Source: a virus
Virus record (IMG/VR): IMGVR_UViG_3300043419_000931
Span: 1-38,795 of that record
DNA: 38,795 bases
Direction: 5' to 3' (one strand)
Positions 2,326-19,067 of this stretch are shown piece after piece. The notes beneath the pieces are model-generated. The model saw only the letters and a list, made by a program, of their open reading frames with translations, did not search any database and was not told the origin of the DNA. A program made the translations under genes and the position numbers. Position 1 is the stretch's first letter. Each line of letters begins with the position of its first letter.

Positions 2326-3321
2326 ATGGAGAAAGATACTGACGTCGAACCGCTGGTCGCCCCCGAGGTTGACCTGCGTGACTTTGTTTTCATGCCGCTG
2401 GACGTGGTGCGGCTGCGCGACTCCGATCTTGGGGTGGTTTGCAGCGACGCCGAGATCAGGGCGGCTCTTTGGCTGTGGTGCGCATCGTGGCATCAAGTGC
2501 CAGCCGCAAGCCTCCCAGACCAAGACAACGTGCTTGCGTCAATGGCTGGGTTTGGGCGCGGCAAAGAAGCGTTGACGCGATGGCTTGAGGTGCGTCAAGG
2601 CGCGTTAAGGGGTTACGTCAAATGCGTTGACGGACGCCTTTACCACCCCGTCATCGCTGAAAAGGCGAACGAGGCTTGGGCCGAAAAAACCAAGTACCGG
2701 CAGCGCAGGGATGAGTTCCGCAAGAGGCAAAAAGACCGCGCCAATGCGCGATGGGACGGTAGCGCCCACTCACATGGCGACGATTCTGCAAGGCGATCAG
2801 GCGGCAAAACTGACGTTGATGCGGCACTGGCATTTGACGTGAATGCCAATGCCGCATTGCCGCCTTGGCATGATGACGTGAATGCCAATGCAAACATGCC
2901 AATGAAAGGGACAGTAAAAGGGACAGTAAAAGGGACAGGGACTAAAGATATATCTTCGTCAACTGCGTCGCCGTTGACGGAGCCTGCTGAAAATCCTCCA
3001 GCACCAGAAAAGCCAGCCAAGGCCACGACCTACCCGCCCGAGTTCTTGGAGGGCTTCTGGGACATCTACCCTCGCCGGGTCAACAAGCTGGATGCCTTGA
3101 AGTCGTGGAAGCGTGCCGTGACCCATGCCGGTGGTGGCAAAGACGCCCAAGACCGCATCAGGAAGGCCGCTGTGGCGTTTTCTGAGGCCAGCCGGGGCCA
3201 AGACCCCAAGTTCATCCCGCACCCCGCCACGTGGCTCAACAAGGGGGCTTGGGAAGAGGCCGAGAACTTCGCTCCCGGCCAGCACCGCCCGGGCTACATC
3301 CCGATGGGGGTGGGTGGTTGA
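2326..3321 (+). CDS. DUF1376-type replication initiation protein
   Basis: This 331-residue protein has an N-terminal DUF1376-like domain (about 18-120; FMPLDVVRLRDSDL, then ALWLWCASW) followed by a basic helix with RQRRDEFRKRQ near 129. A low-complexity linker (about 155-230) follows, then a C-terminal domain with FWDIYPRR and PATWLNKGAW, as seen in phage replication proteins related to lambda O and DnaT-like loaders. It probably binds the origin and recruits the helicase encoded just downstream. Start context is AGAGGG before ATG. The linker-coding DNA (2828-2956) holds iteron-like repeats and a small AT palindrome, suggesting the origin lies within the gene as in lambda O. Confidence 0.7.
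   Translation: MEKDTDVEPLVAPEVDLRDFVFMPLDVVRLRDSDLGVVCSDAEIRAALWLWCASWHQVPAASLPDQDNVLASMAGFGRGKEALTRWLEVRQGALRGYVKCVDGRLYHPVIAEKANEAWAEKTKYRQRRDEFRKRQKDRANARWDGSAHSHGDDSARRSGGKTDVDAALAFDVNANAALPPWHDDVNANANMPMKGTVKGTVKGTGTKDISSSTASPLTEPAENPPAPEKPAKATTYPPEFLEGFWDIYPRRVNKLDALKSWKRAVTHAGGGKDAQDRIRKAAVAFSEASRGQDPKFIPHPATWLNKGAWEEAENFAPGQHRPGYIPMGVGG
2828..2956. repeat. iteron-like cluster, candidate replication origin
   Basis: Two identical 18-bp copies of TGACGTGAATGCCAATGC lie at 2835-2852 and 2874-2891, 39 bp apart. The core ATGCCAATG occurs again at 2896-2904, and inverted partial copies (TTGGCAT, TGGCAT) sit at 2865-2871 and 2828-2833. Next come two tandem copies of GGGACAGTAAAA (2908-2931) plus a third partial copy, then the 12-bp palindrome AAGATATATCTT (2945-2956). 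Iterons followed by AT-rich DNA within the initiator gene is the lambda-type origin layout. Function is inferred; some of the repetition could simply be linker expansion. Confidence 0.5.
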
Positions 3322-3344: not shown

Positions 3345-3369
3345 ACGCCGCCCGGGGAGGAGAGCAAAC

Positions 3370-5070: not shown

Positions 5071-5691
5071 ATGACAAGCACGCAACACCCCACCGGATTT
5101 GTCGCCGCACACCTCGTTGAAGACGCTGGTGACGTCGCACTTCAGCGTGCTGCTGACGGGGCCATCTTGCACTTCTCAAAGGGTAAAAACAACCCGTCGC
5201 TTGGTGCAAAGATGGTCAACAGAACGGTTGACCCACTGGACTGGTACCTGCACCGCAAGCAGATTTCAAACGAGCAACACGACGCCGGGGACTGGCTTCG
5301 CAGATTGCACTACATCGCCTACGGTTCAGGCTATACCAAGGTCAACTTGGGTGGCGTGCATGGCGTCGCCGATTACACTCAGAACTGGAACTTCACGGGC
5401 AAGGCTGCTCGCGCCATGCGAACGATCTCCGACTTCATGCACGCGTTGCCCGAGGCCGAGCGAGTCGTTCTTGACCGGGTCATTCATTGGGGCGACTACG
5501 CCAACAAGGTCGCGCACGGATTGGGTTTATCAGAGAGACAAGGCATTGCCATCTTGCGGTCTGCGCTGTCGCACATCGACCAATGGCGAAACGACGGACT
5601 GCCAAGGAAAAAGGACAGTGGTGAAAAAGCTGGTGCACAAGGTCACGAAAACGGTCGCGCTGAATCCAGTCGCCCAAGCGGTCGCTCGTAA
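5071..5691 (+). CDS. phage protein with helical, possible DUF6456/HTH-like domain
   Basis: A 206-residue protein starting two bases after the helicase stop. The pattern PLDWYLHRKQISNEQHDAGD, then WLRRLHYIAYG, then RVIHWGDYANKVAHGLGLS and QGIAILRSALSHI recalls the layout of DUF6456-like regulatory proteins, in which the last part is an HTH-like segment. I am not certain of the family. Its position at the end of replication genes, ahead of the late genes, would suit a DNA-binding late regulator, but that is inference. The C-terminal 30 residues are polar and disordered and overlap the next gene by 71 bases. Confidence 0.55.
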   Translation: MTSTQHPTGFVAAHLVEDAGDVALQRAADGAILHFSKGKNNPSLGAKMVNRTVDPLDWYLHRKQISNEQHDAGDWLRRLHYIAYGSGYTKVNLGGVHGVADYTQNWNFTGKAARAMRTISDFMHALPEAERVVLDRVIHWGDYANKVAHGLGLSERQGIAILRSALSHIDQWRNDGLPRKKDSGEKAGAQGHENGRAESSRPSGRS

Positions 5692-6682: not shown

Positions 6683-7840
6683 TCAAGCCTCGACCTTGAC
6701 CTTGTCGAGCATCCGGCCTGCAATGCTTTCGAGCTTGAGTCGCTGGTCTTGGAACTCGGCGTCACGCGCCACCGCACTCACGCCTTGGGCAAAGTCCCAA
6801 ATGGATGAAGGCAGCGTGTTTTCCTCGAGCAAGACCGTGTCGCAGATCAGCTTGGCCTGCTTTTGCGAGAAGCCCCACTTGTCGAGAAACTCGTTTCGCT
6901 CATCCGTGTTGCGGGCGACGATCGCTTTTTTTGCCGCCTGCACGCCGTCGATCAGGCGCTTGGTGCTGTTGCCTGAGAATGCCAGCAAGGCAGGCTCGGC
7001 TTCCTTGAGAAAGCGGTCGGGCGCAAACGTGGTGTGCTTGAAGGTCATCTCCTTGAAGTCCTCGACGCCCCAAAGGTTGCGGTTCTGGCAGACCCCACGC
7101 AGGTACATGCTTGCAAAGCCAAAGGTGCGGGAGCCGACTTCGCTGTTCCAAACGTAGAAACCTCGGAACATCAGGTCGGGCTGGCCGTTGGCAAGTTTGC
7201 CGACCTCGATCGGGTTCAAGTCGTCCACCAAAAACAGGAAGACGTCCCGGTCGCTGGCATAGAGCGTGGTGTTCTGCTTAGTGATTGTGACGTTGGGGTT
7301 GTATGTCACGCCGTGCTTGCCGTTCCAGTCGATGCAGCCGGGGACTTTCCATTGCGTGTCGCCGTTGCCGTTGCCAGCGATCTTCATCACCGACTCGACT
7401 ACATCGCTGTCGAAAATGCGCCCGTAACGCACGCTGGTGATGCCGCGCAGGCTGGTGCTGCCGTTCTCCCTGACGTAGGCGCTAACAGGCTTGGCTTCGG
7501 CCCGTGCAAGCCCGTGGTTAAGGTTCTGGGCCGCGATCTCGGCTGGCAGGGTGCGCAGGTAGTAGGCCGGGGCTTGTGCCACGCGGGTGATCTGGTCAAA
7601 GGCCCAATGCGATGGTTCAACGATGCTGCCTGCCAAGTCGAACGTCAGGGAGCCGCCACCGGCGTTGCACTTGATCTCGCTCGGGAGGATGTCAACCGTG
7701 CGGCTCTCGTCGCGGTACAGGCTCACGCGGTCGCGCAGGCTGGTCAAGTCAAGGAACTTCTCGTCGTCGGGGCGCATGGCCCATTGCTGGCTGACCGTGC
7801 CGACAAGCTGGCCTTTGGTGTGGTCGATGGAATGTGTCAT
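6683..7840 (-). CDS. DUF932 domain protein
   Basis: This 385-residue protein matches the DUF932 family carried by phages and plasmids (ACP-like regions WAFDQITRVAQAPAYYLRTL, RGITSVRYGRIFDSD, and the long middle region with FYVWNSEVGSRTFGFA). Its biochemical role is not established; members are often near recombination or anti-restriction genes. The start at 7840 is fixed by ACGGAGAAAGCCAA directly before ATG. The longer reading frame up to 7987 is in a shadow of the upstream gene. Second gene of an operon that begins at 8106. Confidence 0.8.
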   Translation of the reverse strand: MTHSIDHTKGQLVGTVSQQWAMRPDDEKFLDLTSLRDRVSLYRDESRTVDILPSEIKCNAGGGSLTFDLAGSIVEPSHWAFDQITRVAQAPAYYLRTLPAEIAAQNLNHGLARAEAKPVSAYVRENGSTSLRGITSVRYGRIFDSDVVESVMKIAGNGNGDTQWKVPGCIDWNGKHGVTYNPNVTITKQNTTLYASDRDVFLFLVDDLNPIEVGKLANGQPDLMFRGFYVWNSEVGSRTFGFASMYLRGVCQNRNLWGVEDFKEMTFKHTTFAPDRFLKEAEPALLAFSGNSTKRLIDGVQAAKKAIVARNTDERNEFLDKWGFSQKQAKLICDTVLLEENTLPSSIWDFAQGVSAVARDAEFQDQRLKLESIAGRMLDKVKVEA

Positions 7841-7842
7841 TT

Positions 7843-7852
7843 GGCTTTCTCC
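7843..7852 (-). promoter_or_regulatory. shared GGAGAAAGC ribosome-binding element (DUF932 gene)
   Basis: GGAGAAAGCC on the minus strand, two bases before the ATG at 7840; same element as at 1103, 8110, 13203 and 19059. Confidence 0.6.
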
Positions 7853-7857
7853 GTTGA

Positions 7858-8106
7858 TTACTTGGAAGGGTTCAGGCGCAGGGTGGCGAGGCTTTTGCCG
7901 TACACAAGCGCGTTGGTTGGGAACTTGTAGGAGCGAGGGTTCCAGCCTTTCAGGGGCCGATCGCACTCGGCGTCCTCGCAGGGGCAAACCCAGAAAAGGT
8001 CGCCTTCGGGGTAGACGGTCACGTGCGTGCCGTCCTCTTCGTTGTGGATGTGCCAGTGGTTGGTGCCAATCCGCTGGACTTCGATCTCAGGGGTCAAAAT
8101 TTTCAT
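7858..8106 (-). CDS. unknown 82-residue protein, first gene of minus operon
   Basis: The protein begins MKILTPEIEVQRIGTNHWHI and carries CPCEDAEC near 41-48, which could bind a metal. It is probably a small cytoplasmic beta-rich protein. The ATG has ACGGAGAAAGC upstream. It leads the operon 8106 to 5997, whose promoter region has palindrome copy 6. Family not recognised. Confidence 0.65.
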   Translation of the reverse strand: MKILTPEIEVQRIGTNHWHIHNEEDGTHVTVYPEGDLFWVCPCEDAECDRPLKGWNPRSYKFPTNALVYGKSLATLRLNPSK

Positions 8107-8109
8107 CGT

Positions 8110-8118
8110 GCTTTCTCC
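8110..8118 (-). promoter_or_regulatory. shared GGAGAAAGC ribosome-binding element (gene at 8106)
   Basis: GGAGAAAGC on the minus strand, followed by ACG and the ATG at 8106. Confidence 0.6.
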
Positions 8119-8168
8119 GTTTGTTGCCCGGTTTCTACTTTTCTCTTTTTGAAACCGTGAACGTACTT

Positions 8169-8184
8169 TATCATTCCTGTGATA
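8169..8184. promoter_or_regulatory. operator-like palindrome, copy 6 (perfect)
   Basis: TATCAT-TCCT-GTGATA, all 12 positions. On the minus strand it lies within a possible promoter, TTGACT (8197-8192), 19 bases, GATAAA (8172-8167), for the operon starting at 8106. The spacing is long, so the promoter call is weaker than the palindrome. Confidence 0.8.
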
Positions 8185-8273
8185 CTTAGCAAGTCAAATT
8201 TAGCGGTTTTGGTGAGAATATCGCAGGGGATTACCCTCGTTGCGAAATTACTTTTTGAAAAATCAAATACTTA

Positions 8274-8302
8274 TTGCCACCGCTTGCAGTCACCTGCATA
8301 AT
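8274..8302 (+). promoter_or_regulatory. strong sigma70-type promoter of the methyltransferase-lysis operon
   Basis: TTGCCA (8274-8279), 17 bases, CATAAT (8297-8302): each hexamer differs from consensus at one base and the spacing is ideal. Transcription should begin near 8309, leaving a leader of about 140 bases with palindrome copy 7 and a terminator hairpin. Confidence 0.7.
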
Positions 8303-8322
8303 CTCATTTAGGGTGGTGTTTT

Positions 8323-8338
8323 TGTCACTTGAATGAGA
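8323..8338. promoter_or_regulatory. operator-like palindrome, copy 7
   Basis: TGTCAC-TTGA-ATGAGA, 11 of 12 positions, about 15-30 bases downstream of the predicted start from the promoter at 8274. Binding there would act as a roadblock rather than by covering the -10. Confidence 0.6.
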
Positions 8339-8396
8339 ACACCGCCTTTCTGCGCTACTGGCTTTCTCCAACCTCCCTCCACTGCGCGGATTCCCC

Positions 8397-8433
8397 AAAG
8401 GGCAACGGCTCAACCCCGTTGCCCTTTCTTTTT
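8397..8433 (+). terminator. rho-independent terminator in the operon leader
   Basis: A perfect 12-bp stem, AAAGGGCAACGG (8397-8408) with CCGTTGCCCTTT (8416-8427), a 7-base loop and then CTTTTT. It stands between the promoter and the first gene of the same operon, so it would stop most transcripts unless it is read through or anti-terminated. Confidence 0.85.
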
Positions 8434-8451
8434 CCAGATTCAGAGGTACCC

Positions 8452-9765
8452 ATGACCAGCAAGCTGCAAATCACCTACCGCCCGATCGGCGACTTAATCC
8501 CGTACATCCGCAACGCCCGCACGCACAGTGACGAGCAGGTCGTTCAACTGGCCGCGTCCATCAAGGAATTCGGCTGGACGAACCCGGTTCTCGTTGACGG
8601 CGAGCGCGGCATCATCGCGGGCCACGGGCGGGTGATGGCAGCACGCAAACTTGGGATGACCGAGGTGCCGACCATTGAGATCGGCCACATGACCGATGCG
8701 CAGCGCAAGGCATACATCCTTGCCGACAACAAGCTGGCGCTGAACGCCGGGTGGGACTTAGACCTGCTCCGCGTTGAGTTGGGCGAGTTGAACGACGGCG
8801 GCTTTGACATGGAGTTGCTCGGCTTTTCCGTCGACGAACTCGAGAAGCTGCTTGCCCCAGAAGGCACCGATGGCCTTACAGACCCTGACGAAGTTCCCGC
8901 CGTGCCGGAAATGCCGGTGGCCGTCGAGGGTGACGTCTGGGTGCTAGGCCAGCACAGGATCATTTGCGGCTCTTCGACCGAGGTTCACACGGTTGACAAG
9001 CTGTTTGCAGGCGTCAAGCCGAACTTGATGGTCACCGACCCGCCCTACGGCGTGGAATATGACCCGTCTTGGCGCAACGAAGCCCTCAAGGGTAGCAACA
9101 CAAAGCGCACCGGCAAGGTTCTGAACGACGACAAGGCTGATTGGCGCGAGGCTTGGGCGCTGTTCCCGGGCGACGTTGCCTACGTCTGGCACGGCGCACT
9201 GCACGCCACCACGGTGGCCGAGTCCCTGATTGCCTGCGACTTCAACATCCGCAGCCAGATCATCTGGGCGAAAACCCGTCTGGTCATTGGGCGCGGCGAC
9301 TATCACTGGCAGCACGAGCCGTGTTGGTACGCCGTCAAGAAGGCTGGCAAAGGCTGGTGGGCTGGCGACCGCAAGCAAACGACGCTTTGGACGATCGACG
9401 CAAAGGGTCAGGACACTGACACTGTCCACGGCACACAGAAGCCGGTCGAATGCATGAAGCGCCCGATCGAGAACAACTCCAGCCCCGGGCAGGCCGTCTA
9501 CGAGCCGTTTTCTGGCTCCGGCACAACCCTGATCGCCTGCGAGATGACTGGGCGCTCATGCTATGCCGTGGAACTCAACCCCGCCTATGTCGACGTGGCC
9601 GTGCTGCGCTGGCAGGCGTTCACGGGCAAGGCCGCGCACCTTGAGGCCGACGGTCGCACGTTCACCGAAGTCATGGGCGAGCGTGCCCCGGGCAAGCTGG
9701 TGGGCAACGAGCTTGGCAAGGAAGACAAAAAGGCCGAGAAAAAGGCCAGCAAGAAGGCCGCATGA
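8452..9765 (+). CDS. ParB-like domain fused to DNA methyltransferase
   Basis: This 437-residue protein has an N-terminal ParB/Srx-type domain (about 8-95, with IIAGHGR at 54-60) and a C-terminal amino-methyltransferase with DPPY (196-199) followed by FSGSGT (353-358), the motif order of beta-class N6-adenine or N4-cytosine enzymes. It probably methylates phage DNA to avoid host restriction; no restriction enzyme is encoded nearby. The last 25 residues are Lys/Ala/Glu rich. The start is supported by AGAGG five bases upstream, and the longer frame to 8329 would translate the terminator hairpin. Its stop overlaps the next gene by ATGA. Confidence 0.9.
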   Translation: MTSKLQITYRPIGDLIPYIRNARTHSDEQVVQLAASIKEFGWTNPVLVDGERGIIAGHGRVMAARKLGMTEVPTIEIGHMTDAQRKAYILADNKLALNAGWDLDLLRVELGELNDGGFDMELLGFSVDELEKLLAPEGTDGLTDPDEVPAVPEMPVAVEGDVWVLGQHRIICGSSTEVHTVDKLFAGVKPNLMVTDPPYGVEYDPSWRNEALKGSNTKRTGKVLNDDKADWREAWALFPGDVAYVWHGALHATTVAESLIACDFNIRSQIIWAKTRLVIGRGDYHWQHEPCWYAVKKAGKGWWAGDRKQTTLWTIDAKGQDTDTVHGTQKPVECMKRPIENNSSPGQAVYEPFSGSGTTLIACEMTGRSCYAVELNPAYVDVAVLRWQAFTGKAAHLEADGRTFTEVMGERAPGKLVGNELGKEDKKAEKKASKKAA

Positions 9766-11779: not shown

Positions 11780-11990
11780 TCCAGACGTCGGTCGCCCGTC
11801 CTTGCCCAAGGGGGGAAAACATCTCGCCGACCGATCGGTTGCCGTGGATGCAGACGTTGTGTTGCTCTGGGGTCAGTGGGGCGCGAAAACCGCCCGCGTG
11901 GACGCGGCAATAGTCTGGCAGGGACGGTGGTGGCCCAAACGGCGCACAGCCCGCCACAGCCCCGCACAAGGCCAACAGCAGCGCCTTCAC
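11757..11990 (-). CDS. proline-rich lipoprotein
   Basis: A 77-residue protein starting with GTG that overlaps the upstream stop (GTGA). MKALLLALCGAVAGC is a clear lipoprotein signal with lipobox VAGC (Cys15), followed by a Pro-rich stretch (APFGPPPSLPDYC). It lacks Asp after the Cys and should be sorted to the outer membrane. Such small Pro-rich lipoproteins include Rz1-type spanins and phage exclusion lipoproteins. It is antisense to the lysis block and belongs to a minus operon, so early expression with a surface-exclusion role is an attractive inference. Confidence 0.65.
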   Translation of the reverse strand: MKALLLALCGAVAGCAPFGPPPSLPDYCRVHAGGFRAPLTPEQHNVCIHGNRSVGEMFSPLGQGRATDVWITVRPSR

Positions 11991-12205
11991 CGGTAGAGCA
12001 CCACAAACTCGCCGAACTCCCGGTCAAAGACTTGGAGCAGGTGCTCGTAATCGCCCGACCTCATCTCGTCCAAGATGGGGGTCGGGTCGCGTTCAAGTGC
12101 CTCTGCAAGCTGCTTGGCGACAGCAAGTAGCGCAAAGGCGTTGCCTTGGGGGCCAGTCAGGTCGATTTCGATCCGGGTGGTCGCAGGCTTTTTCTTGATG
12201 ACCAT
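11987..12205 (-). CDS. conserved small phage protein of unknown function
   Basis: A 72-residue protein with RIEIDLTGPQGNAFALLAVA and ILDEMRSGDYEHLLQVFDREFGEF, a pattern I recognise as a recurring small hypothetical family of phages and prophages. Gene order and overlap place it within a minus-strand operon between the lipoprotein gene and another unknown. Its function is not known. Confidence 0.7.
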   Translation of the reverse strand: MVIKKKPATTRIEIDLTGPQGNAFALLAVAKQLAEALERDPTPILDEMRSGDYEHLLQVFDREFGEFVVLYR

Positions 12206-12206
12206 G

Positions 12207-12473
12207 TCAGTGATCCTTTTTCAGTTCTTGCGACATCCACGGGGCGTCGGAATGCGAGAACTGCAAAAGCATTTCTGCCGCACCAACGATCGCCTCGCGG
12301 CGTTTGCCCTCTTGGGCCAACCCGACGCAGGCCGTGGCCGTTGCAAGGACAAGGGACTCGACCAGCAAAAGCGGCTCCGTCTCGGTGTTTTGGGCCAGCT
12401 TGACCGAAAACTCGTGGATGGCCGCAGCGACTGCCTCGCGCTGCCGGTGGCGTTGCTCAGACATTTCGCTCAT
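12207..12473 (-). CDS. unknown 88-residue helical protein
   Basis: A helical, soluble protein beginning MSEMSEQRHRQREAVAAAIH. The middle is rich in Ala/Leu (LLLVESLVLATATACVGLA), perhaps a buried helix rather than a membrane span. One base separates it from the next gene, and it overlaps the previous one by four. No family recognised. Confidence 0.6.
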   Translation of the reverse strand: MSEMSEQRHRQREAVAAAIHEFSVKLAQNTETEPLLLVESLVLATATACVGLAQEGKRREAIVGAAEMLLQFSHSDAPWMSQELKKDH

Positions 12474-12694
12474 GCCGCCTCCCTGACCAGTTCGAGGGAA
12501 ACGTTGCCAGCGGCAAGGACGACGGTTCCGTGCCCGCCAAGAACGGTGTGGATGTACGACTGCGCCTCGGCGCGGGTCTTGTAGGTCTTAGGGCCGAGCA
12601 AAAACTCACCGCGCTGGTTCTTCTGCGCGACGAAAAAGGTCAGGATTTGCGGGCGGGGTGTGCTGAACATCTCGTTTTGTTGATTGGTTGTCAT
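12470..12694 (-). CDS. unknown 74-residue protein with operator over its start
   Basis: The protein reads MTTNQQNEMFSTPRPQIL, then GEFLLGPKTYKTRAEAQSYI and a C-terminal beta-rich part. The ATG at 12694 is itself the last bases of palindrome copy 9 and has no Shine-Dalgarno site, so either the message is leaderless or translation starts at the second ATG (12670), which has only GAG before it. The long frame to 12868 is a shadow. It is the first gene of the lower minus operon. Confidence 0.6.
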   Translation of the reverse strand: MTTNQQNEMFSTPRPQILTFFVAQKNQRGEFLLGPKTYKTRAEAQSYIHTVLGGHGTVVLAAGNVSLELVREAA

Positions 12695-12704
12695 GGTTGT
12701 GATA
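12689..12704. promoter_or_regulatory. operator-like palindrome, copy 9 (perfect)
   Basis: TGTCAT-GGTT-GTGATA, all 12 positions. On the minus strand it contains AAGTATCAC, the same possible -10 context as copies 6, 10 and 12, and its left half includes the start codon of the gene at 12694. Confidence 0.8.
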
Positions 12705-12723
12705 CTTTTTTTTGGAAGGCGAA

Positions 12724-13200
12724 TCAAACGGTCGTCTGAGGGCTGCTCTTGAGCCGGTAGAGCACACAGGTGGCGTGCCGAACGCTCTGGATGACGTAGC
12801 CCTTCTTGCGCAAAGCGCCGGAGATGAAGCCGCGAACCGTGTGGCGTTGCCAGCCCGTGGCCTTGCACATCATCTCAAGGCTGACCCCGTCCTCGATCGC
12901 CAGCATCTTGAGGAGCACCTCGCGTTTGGTCGCGCCTTGTGGAATCTCCACCTCGGCCATCGTTGGGTGTGGCTCCTTGGGGGCTGGCGCAGGAGACGTC
13001 TTGAGCGCCTCAATGCCCGACTTGGTCATCACGGCCCGGTTGTCGGCCCGCATCTTGGCAAACCCCGCGCCGACCAAAGCCGCGATCACCTTGGCCTTGG
13101 CCCCGCCGTTGATCTTGGCCGGGAACTTGTCCAGCACGTGGCCGGGGGTCGCAAGTGCTGCCGTCAGCACCGCGTGTTGGGTTGTGGATAACTTTGTCAT
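12724..13200 (-). CDS. DUF3489 domain protein
   Basis: A 158-residue protein. The C-terminal part (about 91-150, KREVLLKMLAIEDGVSLEMM then WQRHTVRGFISGALRKK) matches DUF3489, a winged-helix-like domain thought to bind DNA. The N-terminal part (1-65) looks like another small helical unit (QHAVLTAALATPGHVLD). Start at 13200 with AAGGAGAAAGCCAG upstream. It may be a regulator of the accessory genes; the exact role is unknown. Confidence 0.75.
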   Translation of the reverse strand: MTKLSTTQHAVLTAALATPGHVLDKFPAKINGGAKAKVIAALVGAGFAKMRADNRAVMTKSGIEALKTSPAPAPKEPHPTMAEVEIPQGATKREVLLKMLAIEDGVSLEMMCKATGWQRHTVRGFISGALRKKGYVIQSVRHATCVLYRLKSSPQTTV

Positions 13201-13202
13201 CT

Positions 13203-13212
13203 GGCTTTCTCC
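13203..13212 (-). promoter_or_regulatory. shared GGAGAAAGC ribosome-binding element (DUF3489 gene)
   Basis: GGAGAAAGCC on the minus strand, two bases before the ATG at 13200. It is identical over ten bases to the element before the DUF932 gene. Confidence 0.6.
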
Positions 13213-13217
13213 TTGGT

Positions 13218-13487
13218 TTAGGCGCACTTGCCGGTGCGCAGCGGTTGGCCCTTCTCGGGCTTGGATGGTGGGGACATGACCTCAACAAACACCGACCCGG
13301 AAAGCCTGCCCTGCTCAAACAGCAGGAATGTGAATCCGGGGGCTGACTTGGCGTGCCGGGTTTTTGACCCGGCTTTGACCCATTCCTTGACGTAGGCCGC
13401 AGCGTCCTCAATCGCCACCCGGGGCTTCAGCCCACCTTTGAACTTGGTGGGGGTCGCCTTGGCCATCTCAATCCATACACTTGCCAT
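13218..13487 (-). CDS. unknown 89-residue basic protein
   Basis: A small basic protein (MASVWIEMAKATPTKFKGGL) with an amphipathic centre and a hydrophobic strand GFTFLLFEQGRLSGSVFVEV. AAAGGAGAGAAAG gives the ribosome site. It sits between the DUF3489 gene and the operon's first gene. No family recognised. Confidence 0.6.
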   Translation of the reverse strand: MASVWIEMAKATPTKFKGGLKPRVAIEDAAAYVKEWVKAGSKTRHAKSAPGFTFLLFEQGRLSGSVFVEVMSPPSKPEKGQPLRTGKCA

Positions 13488-13499
13488 CTTTCTCTCCTT

Positions 13500-13724
13500 T
13501 CAGGTGGCGGGTGCAAGCAAGGCCCGGAAGCCTGCCATCGTGACCCGGTAAGCCCGGTGAACCTCTGGCCTGAAAGCCCAGCCGGTGTCCTCGTCATGCA
13601 GGACATCGCCCAAGGCTTGCAGGGACTCGGGGTTAATCCGCTCGTAGCCGATCTCAATGATCGCCTCTTCAACGATCGCCAAGGCTCGTGCCGTATCCGT
13701 TTGGTGGGTGGGGGTTGCGTTCAT
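13500..13724 (-). CDS. unknown 74-residue protein, first gene of minus operon
   Basis: MNATPTHQTDTARALAIVEE followed by a helical acidic region with ESLQALGDVLHDEDTGWAF. The start at 13724 is set by AAAGGAGAACGCAG; the longer frame upstream would run through palindrome copy 10. It heads the operon that runs to 11757 and faces the terminase genes across a twin-palindrome control region. Confidence 0.65.
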   Translation of the reverse strand: MNATPTHQTDTARALAIVEEAIIEIGYERINPESLQALGDVLHDEDTGWAFRPEVHRAYRVTMAGFRALLAPAT

Positions 13725-13726
13725 CT

Positions 13727-13735
13727 GCGTTCTCC
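13727..13735 (-). promoter_or_regulatory. shared ribosome-binding element, one mismatch (gene at 13724)
   Basis: GGAGAACGC on the minus strand, one base different from the GGAGAAAGC found before other minus-strand genes. Confidence 0.45.
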
Positions 13736-13741
13736 TTTGGT

Positions 13742-13757
13742 TGTCACAGTGGTGATA
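13742..13757. promoter_or_regulatory. operator-like palindrome, copy 10 (perfect)
   Basis: TGTCAC-AGTG-GTGATA, all 12 positions. On the minus strand it overlaps TACTATCAC, a likely -10 (TACTAT) for the gene at 13724, with TTGATC 19 bases upstream. Confidence 0.8.
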
Positions 13758-13793
13758 GTACGCCATAGGATTGATCGAAGATCAACGGTTTTT

Positions 13794-17491: not shown

Positions 17492-17701
17492 TCAGCGCGA
17501 CCACCGTTTGGGTCGCAGAAATGTCGGGACGCCCTCAAGCAACTCGACGATGGACGCCGCGTACTCTGGCACCGGCAGTTGTCCTGCCGACCAGCGTTTG
17601 ACCGTCGCGTAGCTGATGCCGGTTGCAAGCGAAAACCGCTTCTTCCAGCCCCACCGACCGAGCAGCGCCGCGCAACGAGTGTTGAACTCGTCATTCGTCA
17701 T
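17492..17701 (-). CDS. small HTH protein, Cro/XRE-like
   Basis: A 69-residue protein with a helix-turn-helix at about 20-40 (FSLATGISYATVKRWSAGQL) and a C-terminal helix. It could be a second DNA-binding regulator of this phage and is therefore an alternative candidate for binding the 16-bp palindrome. The start at 17701 was chosen over the shadow-like upstream frame. It ends one base after the convergent membrane protein gene. Confidence 0.7.
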   Translation of the reverse strand: MTNDEFNTRCAALLGRWGWKKRFSLATGISYATVKRWSAGQLPVPEYAASIVELLEGVPTFLRPKRWSR

Positions 17702-17957
17702 AGTTGCACTCGCACGAGAAGTTGTAGCAGCGCAGGCAGTAGCCGGTCTCAAGAATCTGCATTCGAACTTCGTGCCGCAAGCGACGGTACTCCTCGCTGC
17801 CTTCTTCGCTATCGAGAAGCCGCGCCCAAGCCTCGAACAACTCGTCCTGCCGCTTGAAAGTGGACTCAAGCGACTTGTTTTTCGACGCGATGATGAGTTC
17901 GAGGTTGTCGATCTTGGTTTGTTGCTCGGCGATGACCCGTGTCAGTGCTTCACTCAT
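17691..17957 (-). CDS. coiled-coil protein with C-terminal Cys cluster
   Basis: An 88-residue protein starting MSEALTRVIAEQQTKIDNLE, coiled coil to about residue 60, then ending with CLRCYNFSCECNYDE, four Cys that could hold a metal. AAGGAG lies before the ATG. It overlaps both neighbours (11 and 8 bases). No family recognised. Confidence 0.6.
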   Translation of the reverse strand: MSEALTRVIAEQQTKIDNLELIIASKNKSLESTFKRQDELFEAWARLLDSEEGSEEYRRLRHEVRMQILETGYCLRCYNFSCECNYDE

Positions 17958-18222
17958 GTTGGCTCCTTGCTCTGATGGCCGCAGCAATTGCCAGCGTGCC
18001 GTATTGCTCGATGCCCATCTGTTCGACCAGACAGGCGACTTCTTCGCGCTCCTTGGCAAGCGCCGACTGGATTGCTTCGAGGCTTGCTTCGATGACGGCA
18101 GCGTCGTGCTTCTGCATGATCTGGCCGATCATCCACATCACGTTGCCGCCAAGGCGTGTGCTGGCTTCGGCCAGATTCTTTTGGTAGGTTGCGCTGCGCT
18201 CCTTCATGACAGCGACTTCCAT
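17950..18222 (-). CDS. unknown 90-residue helical protein
   Basis: MEVAVMKERSATYQKNLAEA then helical sequence with WMIGQIMQKHDAAVIEAS and AKEREEVACLVEQMG. AAGAG precedes the ATG at 18222; a second ATG at 18207 is also possible. Part of a tight minus operon, overlapping both neighbours. It resembles small helical phage proteins of unknown role. Confidence 0.6.
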   Translation of the reverse strand: MEVAVMKERSATYQKNLAEASTRLGGNVMWMIGQIMQKHDAAVIEASLEAIQSALAKEREEVACLVEQMGIEQYGTLAIAAAIRARSQHE

Positions 18223-18386
18223 CTGCTCTTTGGTTCGTTGGCCTTGCTGATGTAGAAATGGATCAGGAAGTTGAAGATTTGCGCGTAGCTCATGCGGATG
18301 CCGGTGTCGGCGGCAAGCCTGTCCCTGATCAGGTCAATGTCGTTCGACACCGGGATGGTGACCCGCTTGGAGGTTGGGTCAATCAT
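18204..18386 (-). CDS. ribbon-helix-helix-like small protein
   Basis: A 60-residue protein with RVTIPVSNDIDLIRDRLA, a short strand followed by two helices (YAQIFNFLIHFYIS), consistent with a ribbon-helix-helix DNA-binding fold. It could be an Arc-type regulator. The start at 18386 is inside the end of the 54-residue gene upstream (7-base overlap). Role in this phage is unknown. Confidence 0.6.
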   Translation of the reverse strand: MIDPTSKRVTIPVSNDIDLIRDRLAADTGIRMSYAQIFNFLIHFYISKANEPKSRWKSLS

Positions 18387-18543
18387 GGCTTTCAAAGTCC
18401 TCGTCGCAGTGCTCGCAGCCCGGGTGATCTGGGTCGCGGCAGTCGGGGTTCCGCATGAGCCGGTTGTGGTACCGACGTTCTGCAAGGGCTTCTGCCCTCA
18501 GATCGTCGTATTCGTCGTTGTCGCGGTCGAAACGTGTGAACAT
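18379..18543 (-). CDS. 54-residue protein with Cys/His cluster
   Basis: A short acidic protein, MFTRFDRDNDEYDDLRAEAL at the start and CRDPDHPGCEHCDEDF near the end (C36, C44, C47 with His), which may bind zinc. It fills the gap between the genes at 18386 and 18553, has a normal start/stop overlap with the next gene, and uses codons like its neighbours, so I regard it as a real gene despite its size. Function unknown. Confidence 0.65.
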   Translation of the reverse strand: MFTRFDRDNDEYDDLRAEALAERRYHNRLMRNPDCRDPDHPGCEHCDEDFESHD

Positions 18544-18552
18544 CGTGACTCC

Positions 18553-18903
18553 TTATTCGATGCGCAGGACTTCAACGGACTGGCCGTTGACGCAGGATTT
18601 GTAGGTTCCAGCACCCCAACGGTTTGAGCACCAGCCGCAAACCGCAGACTGCATGTGCGTTGGCTCCACCGTATCGGGGCAAAGAATCACGCCGACCTCG
18701 CCCGGGTTAAGTGCGGCGAGAACCGGCTGGTAAAGCTCGTGCAGGAAGCCGCGTGGGTAGCGTTGAACGCGCTTGTGCTCCACTTCCCTGACCACCTCGA
18801 GCGTGCCGAACTCCTCGCCGGTCGGCAGGATGATCTTGAACTCGGCCTTGCAGGCTTGCAAAAGACGAATGGCTTGTTCGGTCGTTTTGACTGTGATGCT
18901 CAT
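18553..18903 (-). CDS. unknown 116-residue protein with Cys motifs
   Basis: MSITVKTTEQAIRLLQACKA, then IILPTGEEFGTLEVV, and a C-terminal part with CPDTVEP, VCGWCSNRW and KSC that may bind metal. AGCGAGGTC precedes the ATG. The overall build looks like a conserved small phage family, but I cannot name it. Confidence 0.6.
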   Translation of the reverse strand: MSITVKTTEQAIRLLQACKAEFKIILPTGEEFGTLEVVREVEHKRVQRYPRGFLHELYQPVLAALNPGEVGVILCPDTVEPTHMQSAVCGWCSNRWGAGTYKSCVNGQSVEVLRIE

Positions 18904-18914
18904 GACGACCTCGC

Positions 18915-19055
18915 TCAGATGTTGAAAAAGATCGCGCAGGCGAGGCCGATGCCGATGGCGGTTGCCAGCAAAGCATCGAGCACCGGGGTTGGGCGGCGCT
19001 GGTTCATTTCCCGGGTGATGGCCCGGACGTTGGCGTGTTGTGTGTGTTGGCTCAT
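18915..19055 (-). CDS. 46-residue single-span membrane protein
   Basis: A short protein with a polar, basic N-terminus and one membrane segment at the C-terminus (about 25-44, LDALLATAIGIGLACAIFF). GAAGGAGAAAGCAAC gives a strong start at 19055; the frame above it runs into palindrome copy 12. First gene of the third minus operon. Small membrane proteins expressed early often alter the host envelope, but nothing specific is visible. Confidence 0.65.
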   Translation of the reverse strand: MSQHTQHANVRAITREMNQRRPTPVLDALLATAIGIGLACAIFFNI

Positions 19056-19058
19056 GTT

Positions 19059-19067
19059 GCTTTCTCC
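19059..19067 (-). promoter_or_regulatory. shared GGAGAAAGC ribosome-binding element (gene at 19055)
   Basis: GGAGAAAGC on the minus strand, followed by AAC and the ATG at 19055. Confidence 0.6.

Follow-up and report, generated by a model that had tools for sequence, protein, structure and literature searches.

A predicted late-leader RNA with complementarity to ribosome-binding sites of leftward genes in the same phage

The window, by which is meant the whole stretch of DNA that was analysed, comprises the 38,795 bases of one virus record and has 59% GC. To the left of the intergenic region at 8107-8451 lie two leftward genes, 7858-8106 and a DUF932-like gene at 6683-7840. To its right begins a rightward gene run, headed by a ParB-N / N6-N4 DNA methyltransferase (8452-9765, + strand) and continuing through HNH, small genes, endolysin, terminase and portal. 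Two leftward cassettes, at 11987-13766 and 17691-19055, interrupt these rightward late genes.

Within the intergenic region, a sigma-70-like promoter (TTGCCA-17-CATAAT, 8274-8302, + strand) matches the consensus at 10 of 12 positions. At this threshold (at least 10/12) only two + strand sites, this one included, are present in the whole 38.8 kb, and when the intergenic region was shuffled 1000 times, 20 of the shuffles held a site as good; in a 20-kb scan at the looser threshold of at least 9/12 the four promoter-like sites found equalled the shuffled mean of 4.0. The match is modest taken alone and exceeds chance for its place. An earlier, preliminary description of this locus called the promoter strong; the boxes and spacing are as it gave them, but strength is not a property that can be judged from sequence. 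Downstream is an intrinsic terminator (8397-8433, + strand), consisting of a 12-bp stem (AAAGGGCAACGG-7-CCGTTGCCCTTT) that is exact, as had been reported, and is followed by CTTTTT. No other perfect 12-bp hairpin (loop 3-8) occurs in the window, and no such hairpin with a T tract arose in 2000 shuffles. Since the T tract is on the + strand side only, the terminator would stop rightward transcription. The upstream neighbours being leftward, the late operon must be reached by read-through of this terminator or from a promoter further inside, as the 18-bp gap behind the terminator appears to leave no room for one; some control of read-through is therefore plausible. The overall order of promoter, operator and terminator ahead of the methyltransferase/lysis operon, also part of the preliminary description, is present in the window and recurs in relatives.

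The operator in this order, previously listed as the seventh copy of a palindrome, most likely corresponds to TTTGTCACTTGAATGAGAA (8321-8339). This copy lies just downstream of the -10 box and is imperfect, with three mismatches to TTATCA..C.GTGAYA. The operator family TRTCAY..RTGAYA yields 15 rows in the window, corresponding to about nine sites, against an expectation of 0.97, and none of 100 shuffles equalled this number. The approximately nine operator-like palindromes are at 1142, 2239, 8168, 8321, 12688, 13741, 13793, 19139 and 38166, and several precede leftward cassettes, as if a single repressor governs all. The copy at 8168-8186 overlies the leftward promoter of gene 7858-8106 and is kept by nearly all relatives. 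The presumed owner of the operators is a CI-like repressor gene (1206-1847, - strand) recognised by Pfam and PHROGs scans; we infer that its product binds them, and it probably controls the late promoter.

Promoter and terminator together are the sequence signals for a discrete RNA. With the start taken from the position of the -10 box, a terminated leader RNA of about 124 nt is predicted (8310-8433, + strand). Its fold has an energy of -49.8 kcal/mol (z -5.2), and 0 of 200 shuffles were as stable. The predicted structure has three parts: the 5' hairpin spans 8311-8347, the middle hairpin, whose loop is CU-rich, spans 8349-8390, and the terminator follows. An Rfam scan of the window matched no family. 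An H-type pseudoknot (CTCATT/AATGAG with GGTGTT/AACACC) was considered and rejected by reasoning, as its third loop would be 0 nt and its first arm lies upstream of the likely start.

The most informative feature of the leader, overlooked in the preliminary description, is that it is antisense to ribosome-binding sites (RBSs) of the phage's own leftward genes. The loop carries an anti-tag at 8358-8369 (+ strand; CTGGCTTTCTCC, shown by the RNA as CUGGCUUUCUCC), which is exactly complementary over 8-12 nt to the RBSs of five leftward genes. The matching tags, all on the - strand, are GGAGAAAGCCAG (13201-13212, 12 nt) before the DUF3489 gene at 12724-13200, GGAGAAAGCCA (7842-7852, 11 nt) before the DUF932-like gene, GGAGAAAGC before both gene 7858-8106 (8110-8118, 9 nt) and gene 18915-19055 (19059-19067, 9 nt), and GGAGAAAG (1104-1111, 8 nt) before a YqaJ/RecE-like exonuclease (94-1101). 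The best duplex energy of the anti-tag loop, -24.3 kcal/mol, is with the exonuclease RBS. A further GGAGAAAG (2328-2335, + strand) overlaps the start of a replication gene (2326-3321), a possible sixth target. The window holds seven copies of GGAGAAAG where 1.28 are expected (0 of 100 shuffles): the five leftward RBSs, the replication-gene start, and the one antisense copy in the leader. When the loop was used as a probe, ten start regions in the window reached -18 kcal/mol, against a mean of 2.5 for shuffled loops, of which 0 of 300 reached ten. The leftward cassettes that sit between late genes have operators nearby and tagged RBSs. A second record, L082 (IMGVR_UViG_3300046820_001285, 47.4 kb), agrees with the window at every base of the 10.7 kb compared (from 13913) and ends near window position 3346. 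It seems to be this phage, permuted differently, in which case the genome would measure about 58 kb. No further RBS tag was found in the remainder of the window's own phage.

These features suggest, with a probability of roughly two in three, that an early-terminated late transcript acts in trans as a repressor-controlled antisense RNA that represses translation initiation of the tagged phage genes. The promoter, probably under the CI-like repressor, would yield the RNA of about 124 nt ending 18 bp before the methyltransferase/lysis operon. Folded into 5' hairpin, CU-rich-loop middle hairpin and terminator, this RNA would expose a loop that mirrors, as reverse complement, a phage-specific tag; the tag spans the Shine-Dalgarno (SD) sequence and extends nearly to the start codon. 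Five or more leftward genes are predicted targets (the exonuclease gene, the DUF932-like and DUF3489 genes and two small ones), and the replication-gene start may be touched as well. On firing of the late promoter, abundant terminated RNA would pair with the tagged RBSs and shut off their translation, and polymerases that pass the terminator would go on to make late mRNA. What the sequences show is the elements themselves, the complementarity, the way it covaries between phages and, in the predicted fold, an exposed loop; transcription of the leader, its termination, the repressive direction of the pairing and its timing are all predictions of the model.

Syntenic relatives, found via terL, the methyltransferase and the DUF932-like protein, permit comparison. 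Gene order and a leader with a hairpin recur in about 18 related phage contigs, the kept order being repressor, DUF1064, replication genes, DUF932-like (leftward), intergenic region and methyltransferase. For most relatives the hairpin ends 16-31 nt ahead of the methyltransferase start; several have a clear T tract and some have none. The leader DNA itself has no significant similarity to that of relatives, so only architecture and complementarity are comparable. Searches of phage records with the window's DNA from 6.6 to 11.3 kb, the DUF932-like protein and terL returned distant isolates only, and no annotated leader. No homologues of the DUF3489 target were found in relatives, and the tagged genes are therefore not simply co-inherited.

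Tag and leader anti-tag both vary among relatives, and vary together. Leaders contain the complement of their own leftward RBS as TGCGTTTTCTCC (L166, L168), CTGCTTCTCCT (L164), GTTCTCTCC (L162) or GCACCTCCATCC (L188), so that pairs which differ between phages match within each, e.g. GGAGAAAACGCA in L166 and L168, AGGAGAAGCAG in L164 and GGATGGAGGTGC in L188. Across 17 phages and 200 leftward genes, called with a simple gene finder, matches of at least 9 nt to the own leader numbered 20, versus 4.6 with swapped leaders, and 0 of 20,000 deals reached the observed number; the P-values of such leader-swap tests are inexact, the relatives sharing ancestry. For the DUF932-like RBS alone (13 phages), one of 200,000 deals reached the observed sum, and 102 of 200,000 did so with the SD core masked. 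Among genes outside the first loci, a second set, there were 12 own matches versus 5.7 with other leaders, a smaller excess of only twofold. Complementarity is weak or absent in L173, L175, L176, L186, L198, L206 and L216. In predicted folds the mean unpaired probability of the anti-tag is above the leader mean in 11 of 13 leaders, the exceptions being L162/L191 and L188.

The same comparison bears on whether the loop is a generic anti-Shine-Dalgarno RNA directed mainly at host mRNAs, with the phage-gene matches as a by-product. The CCUCC/CUCC of the loop could pair with any strong SD, and some relatives match their own leader over eight SD-like letters only. Against this, leaders suit the phage that carries them better than leaders from other phages do, with the SD masked too, and there is no excess for rightward genes with ordinary SDs, which in the same leader-swap test of 17 phages gave 4 own matches versus 2.2. 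In L190/L207 the shared letters, GCCAAGCAA, immediately precede the SD at about nine genes, which lie on both contig strands; a generic anti-SD effect therefore does not apply there, and overall this explanation is very unlikely. Shared DNA ancestry is another alternative: the leader's minus strand would have arisen from the start of a leftward gene, as a remnant or a copy, and the RBS match would owe nothing to RNA pairing. On the minus strand the anti-tag does resemble another leftward RBS copy, but the matches end at the start codon, with no ATG following in the window, L164 or L168. Moreover, every anti-tag has a rightward promoter on one side and a terminator on the other, and most fall in a predicted loop; the letters shared in L190/L207 leave out the SD. 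Such a relic is distinctly unlikely to account for the match.

A reversal of the roles has also to be weighed, with the tagged mRNAs serving as sponges for the leader or as switches that act on it, for instance by freeing the methyltransferase RBS or altering termination, or with pairing that activates or stabilises the targets. In the read-through RNA a pairing is possible between ACCUC of the loop and GAGGU, the methyltransferase SD, but this cis pairing is not kept in relatives. Leaders L165/L193 and L167/L196 contain two mutually exclusive hairpins around the terminator, the U tract lying inside the longer, an arrangement that could be a read-through switch and is compatible with the reversed roles. 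Pairing that covers an SD, on the other hand, usually blocks ribosomes, and action in the reverse direction is judged highly improbable. Antisense repression of the tagged genes by the leader RNA is retained as the preferred reading.

The preliminary description had interpreted the locus as a promoter-terminator leader of the lambdoid type, controlling late genes by antitermination, and had put forward gene 5071-5691 (+ strand) as a candidate antiterminator. The order of promoter, terminator and late operon agrees with the first proposal, and the terminator must be crossed by transcription. Antitermination by Q, however, calls for a -10-like pause element and a Q-binding element in addition to the Q protein itself (PMC6606751), and it is not supported for this locus. 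Pfam and PHROGs scans matched no antiterminator or Q family among the early genes, and 8303-8330, the first 28 bases past the -10 box, contains no 4-of-6 match to TATAAT as a -10-like sigma-pause element. As to the second proposal, the product of 5071-5691 is DUF6456-like (E 4e-5, below the Pfam cut-off), matches no antiterminator family, and has homologues in only four of about 20 relatives sharing the leader. Its C-terminal half bears a loose likeness, short of significance, to sigma region 4 (best E 0.08), its structure model is of low confidence (pLDDT 63), and no sequence relatives of weight were found in the PDB; a role in transcription is possible for it. That the leader might be an antitermination switch and nothing more, its complementarity being incidental, could draw on this weak sigma-4-like helix-turn-helix and on the gene order. 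Against it stand the covariation of the complementarity in relatives, which persists when the SD core is masked, the lack of a Q homologue and pause element and the absence of 5071-5691 from most relatives, and it is considered unlikely.

Compared with the lambdoid late leader (pR'-tR', Q antitermination), the antisense leader proposed here shares the promoter, the short terminated leader and the late genes that follow, but differs in having no Q homologue, no -10-like pause element, an operator at the promoter and a methyltransferase as first gene. Antisense regulation of phage genes by a phage RNA also has precedents in lambda OOP and aQ, each encoded in cis against a single overlapping gene (PMC12197685); the RNA predicted here would instead reach several unlinked genes in trans, by way of the tag they share. 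The closest published precedent in kind, by the description in that review, is StxS (Sy, Lan and Tree 2020), which is reported to repress stx1AB and activate host rpoS (PMC12197685). Like the predicted leader RNA, StxS is described there as a short base-pairing regulator that arises when a phage late transcript terminates early (PMC12197685). The present case differs in that one RBS tag would direct the RNA to many genes of its own phage, and in that the promoter bears repressor operators. Among the papers searched, none describes an RBS-tag/antisense pair in phages.

A comparable set of start-linked repeats is known from cluster K mycobacteriophages, which carry 11-19 copies of GGGATAGGAGCCC (Start-Associated Sequences, SAS) just ahead of start codons, with function unknown (PMC3203893). 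SAS are phage-specific, contain the SD and precede the starts of many non-structural genes (PMC3203893, PMC11373665, PMC12699233). In four K1 phages a single copy in the opposite orientation has no gene start attached (PMC3203893). As to a partner of SAS, these reports propose no RNA beyond the statement that 'RNA or protein remains to be determined' (PMC3203893, PMC11373665, PMC12699233). The window resembles this arrangement in having a phage-wide start tag (six sense copies of GGAGAAAG) plus one antisense copy. Phages and hosts are unrelated, however, and the window tag GGAGAAAGCCA shares no 13-mer with GGGATAGGAGCCC; the system in the window is an analogue of SAS, not a member.

A broader and more tentative reading, less probable than even odds, is that temperate phages of unrelated groups share a private code, in which the tags on a set of RBSs and one matching anti-tag, carried by the loop of the late-leader RNA, drift together between lineages and firing of the late promoter silences the tagged set, the SAS of cluster K, unexplained since 2011, being the same device. 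If true, one self-encoded RNA would turn off a group of the phage's own genes as the late genes start, with the pairing code rewritten in each lineage. Short terminated late leaders would then have a purpose, and the mycobacteriophage SAS a direct, testable explanation.

Within cluster K the degree of pairing varies. Outside K1 the SAS is invariant and the loop has no exact match to it. A CU-rich hairpin loop pairs with SAS only via bulges or internal loops in Amohnition, Unicorn, Amgine and Shandong1, and no clear anti-SAS was found in Keshu, Yuna, SirPhilip or Nibb. A similar arrangement, clear in subcluster K1 only, may explain the cluster K SAS, and for K1 the parallel is strong, the pairing outside it being imperfect. 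Late transcription of Adephagia starts in the gene 92-93 region by RNA-seq (PMC11373665). The opposite SAS of this phage (JF704105) was located at 58,682-58,694 (L299 8683-8695) in the gene 92-93 intergenic region, within the predicted loop of a long stem. This copy occupies the loop of a hairpin that is conserved in the late-leader region, which suggests an anti-SAS RNA. The anti-SAS is kept in the six K1 phages examined, and the gene 92-93 region of Adephagia is conserved in 177 phage records.
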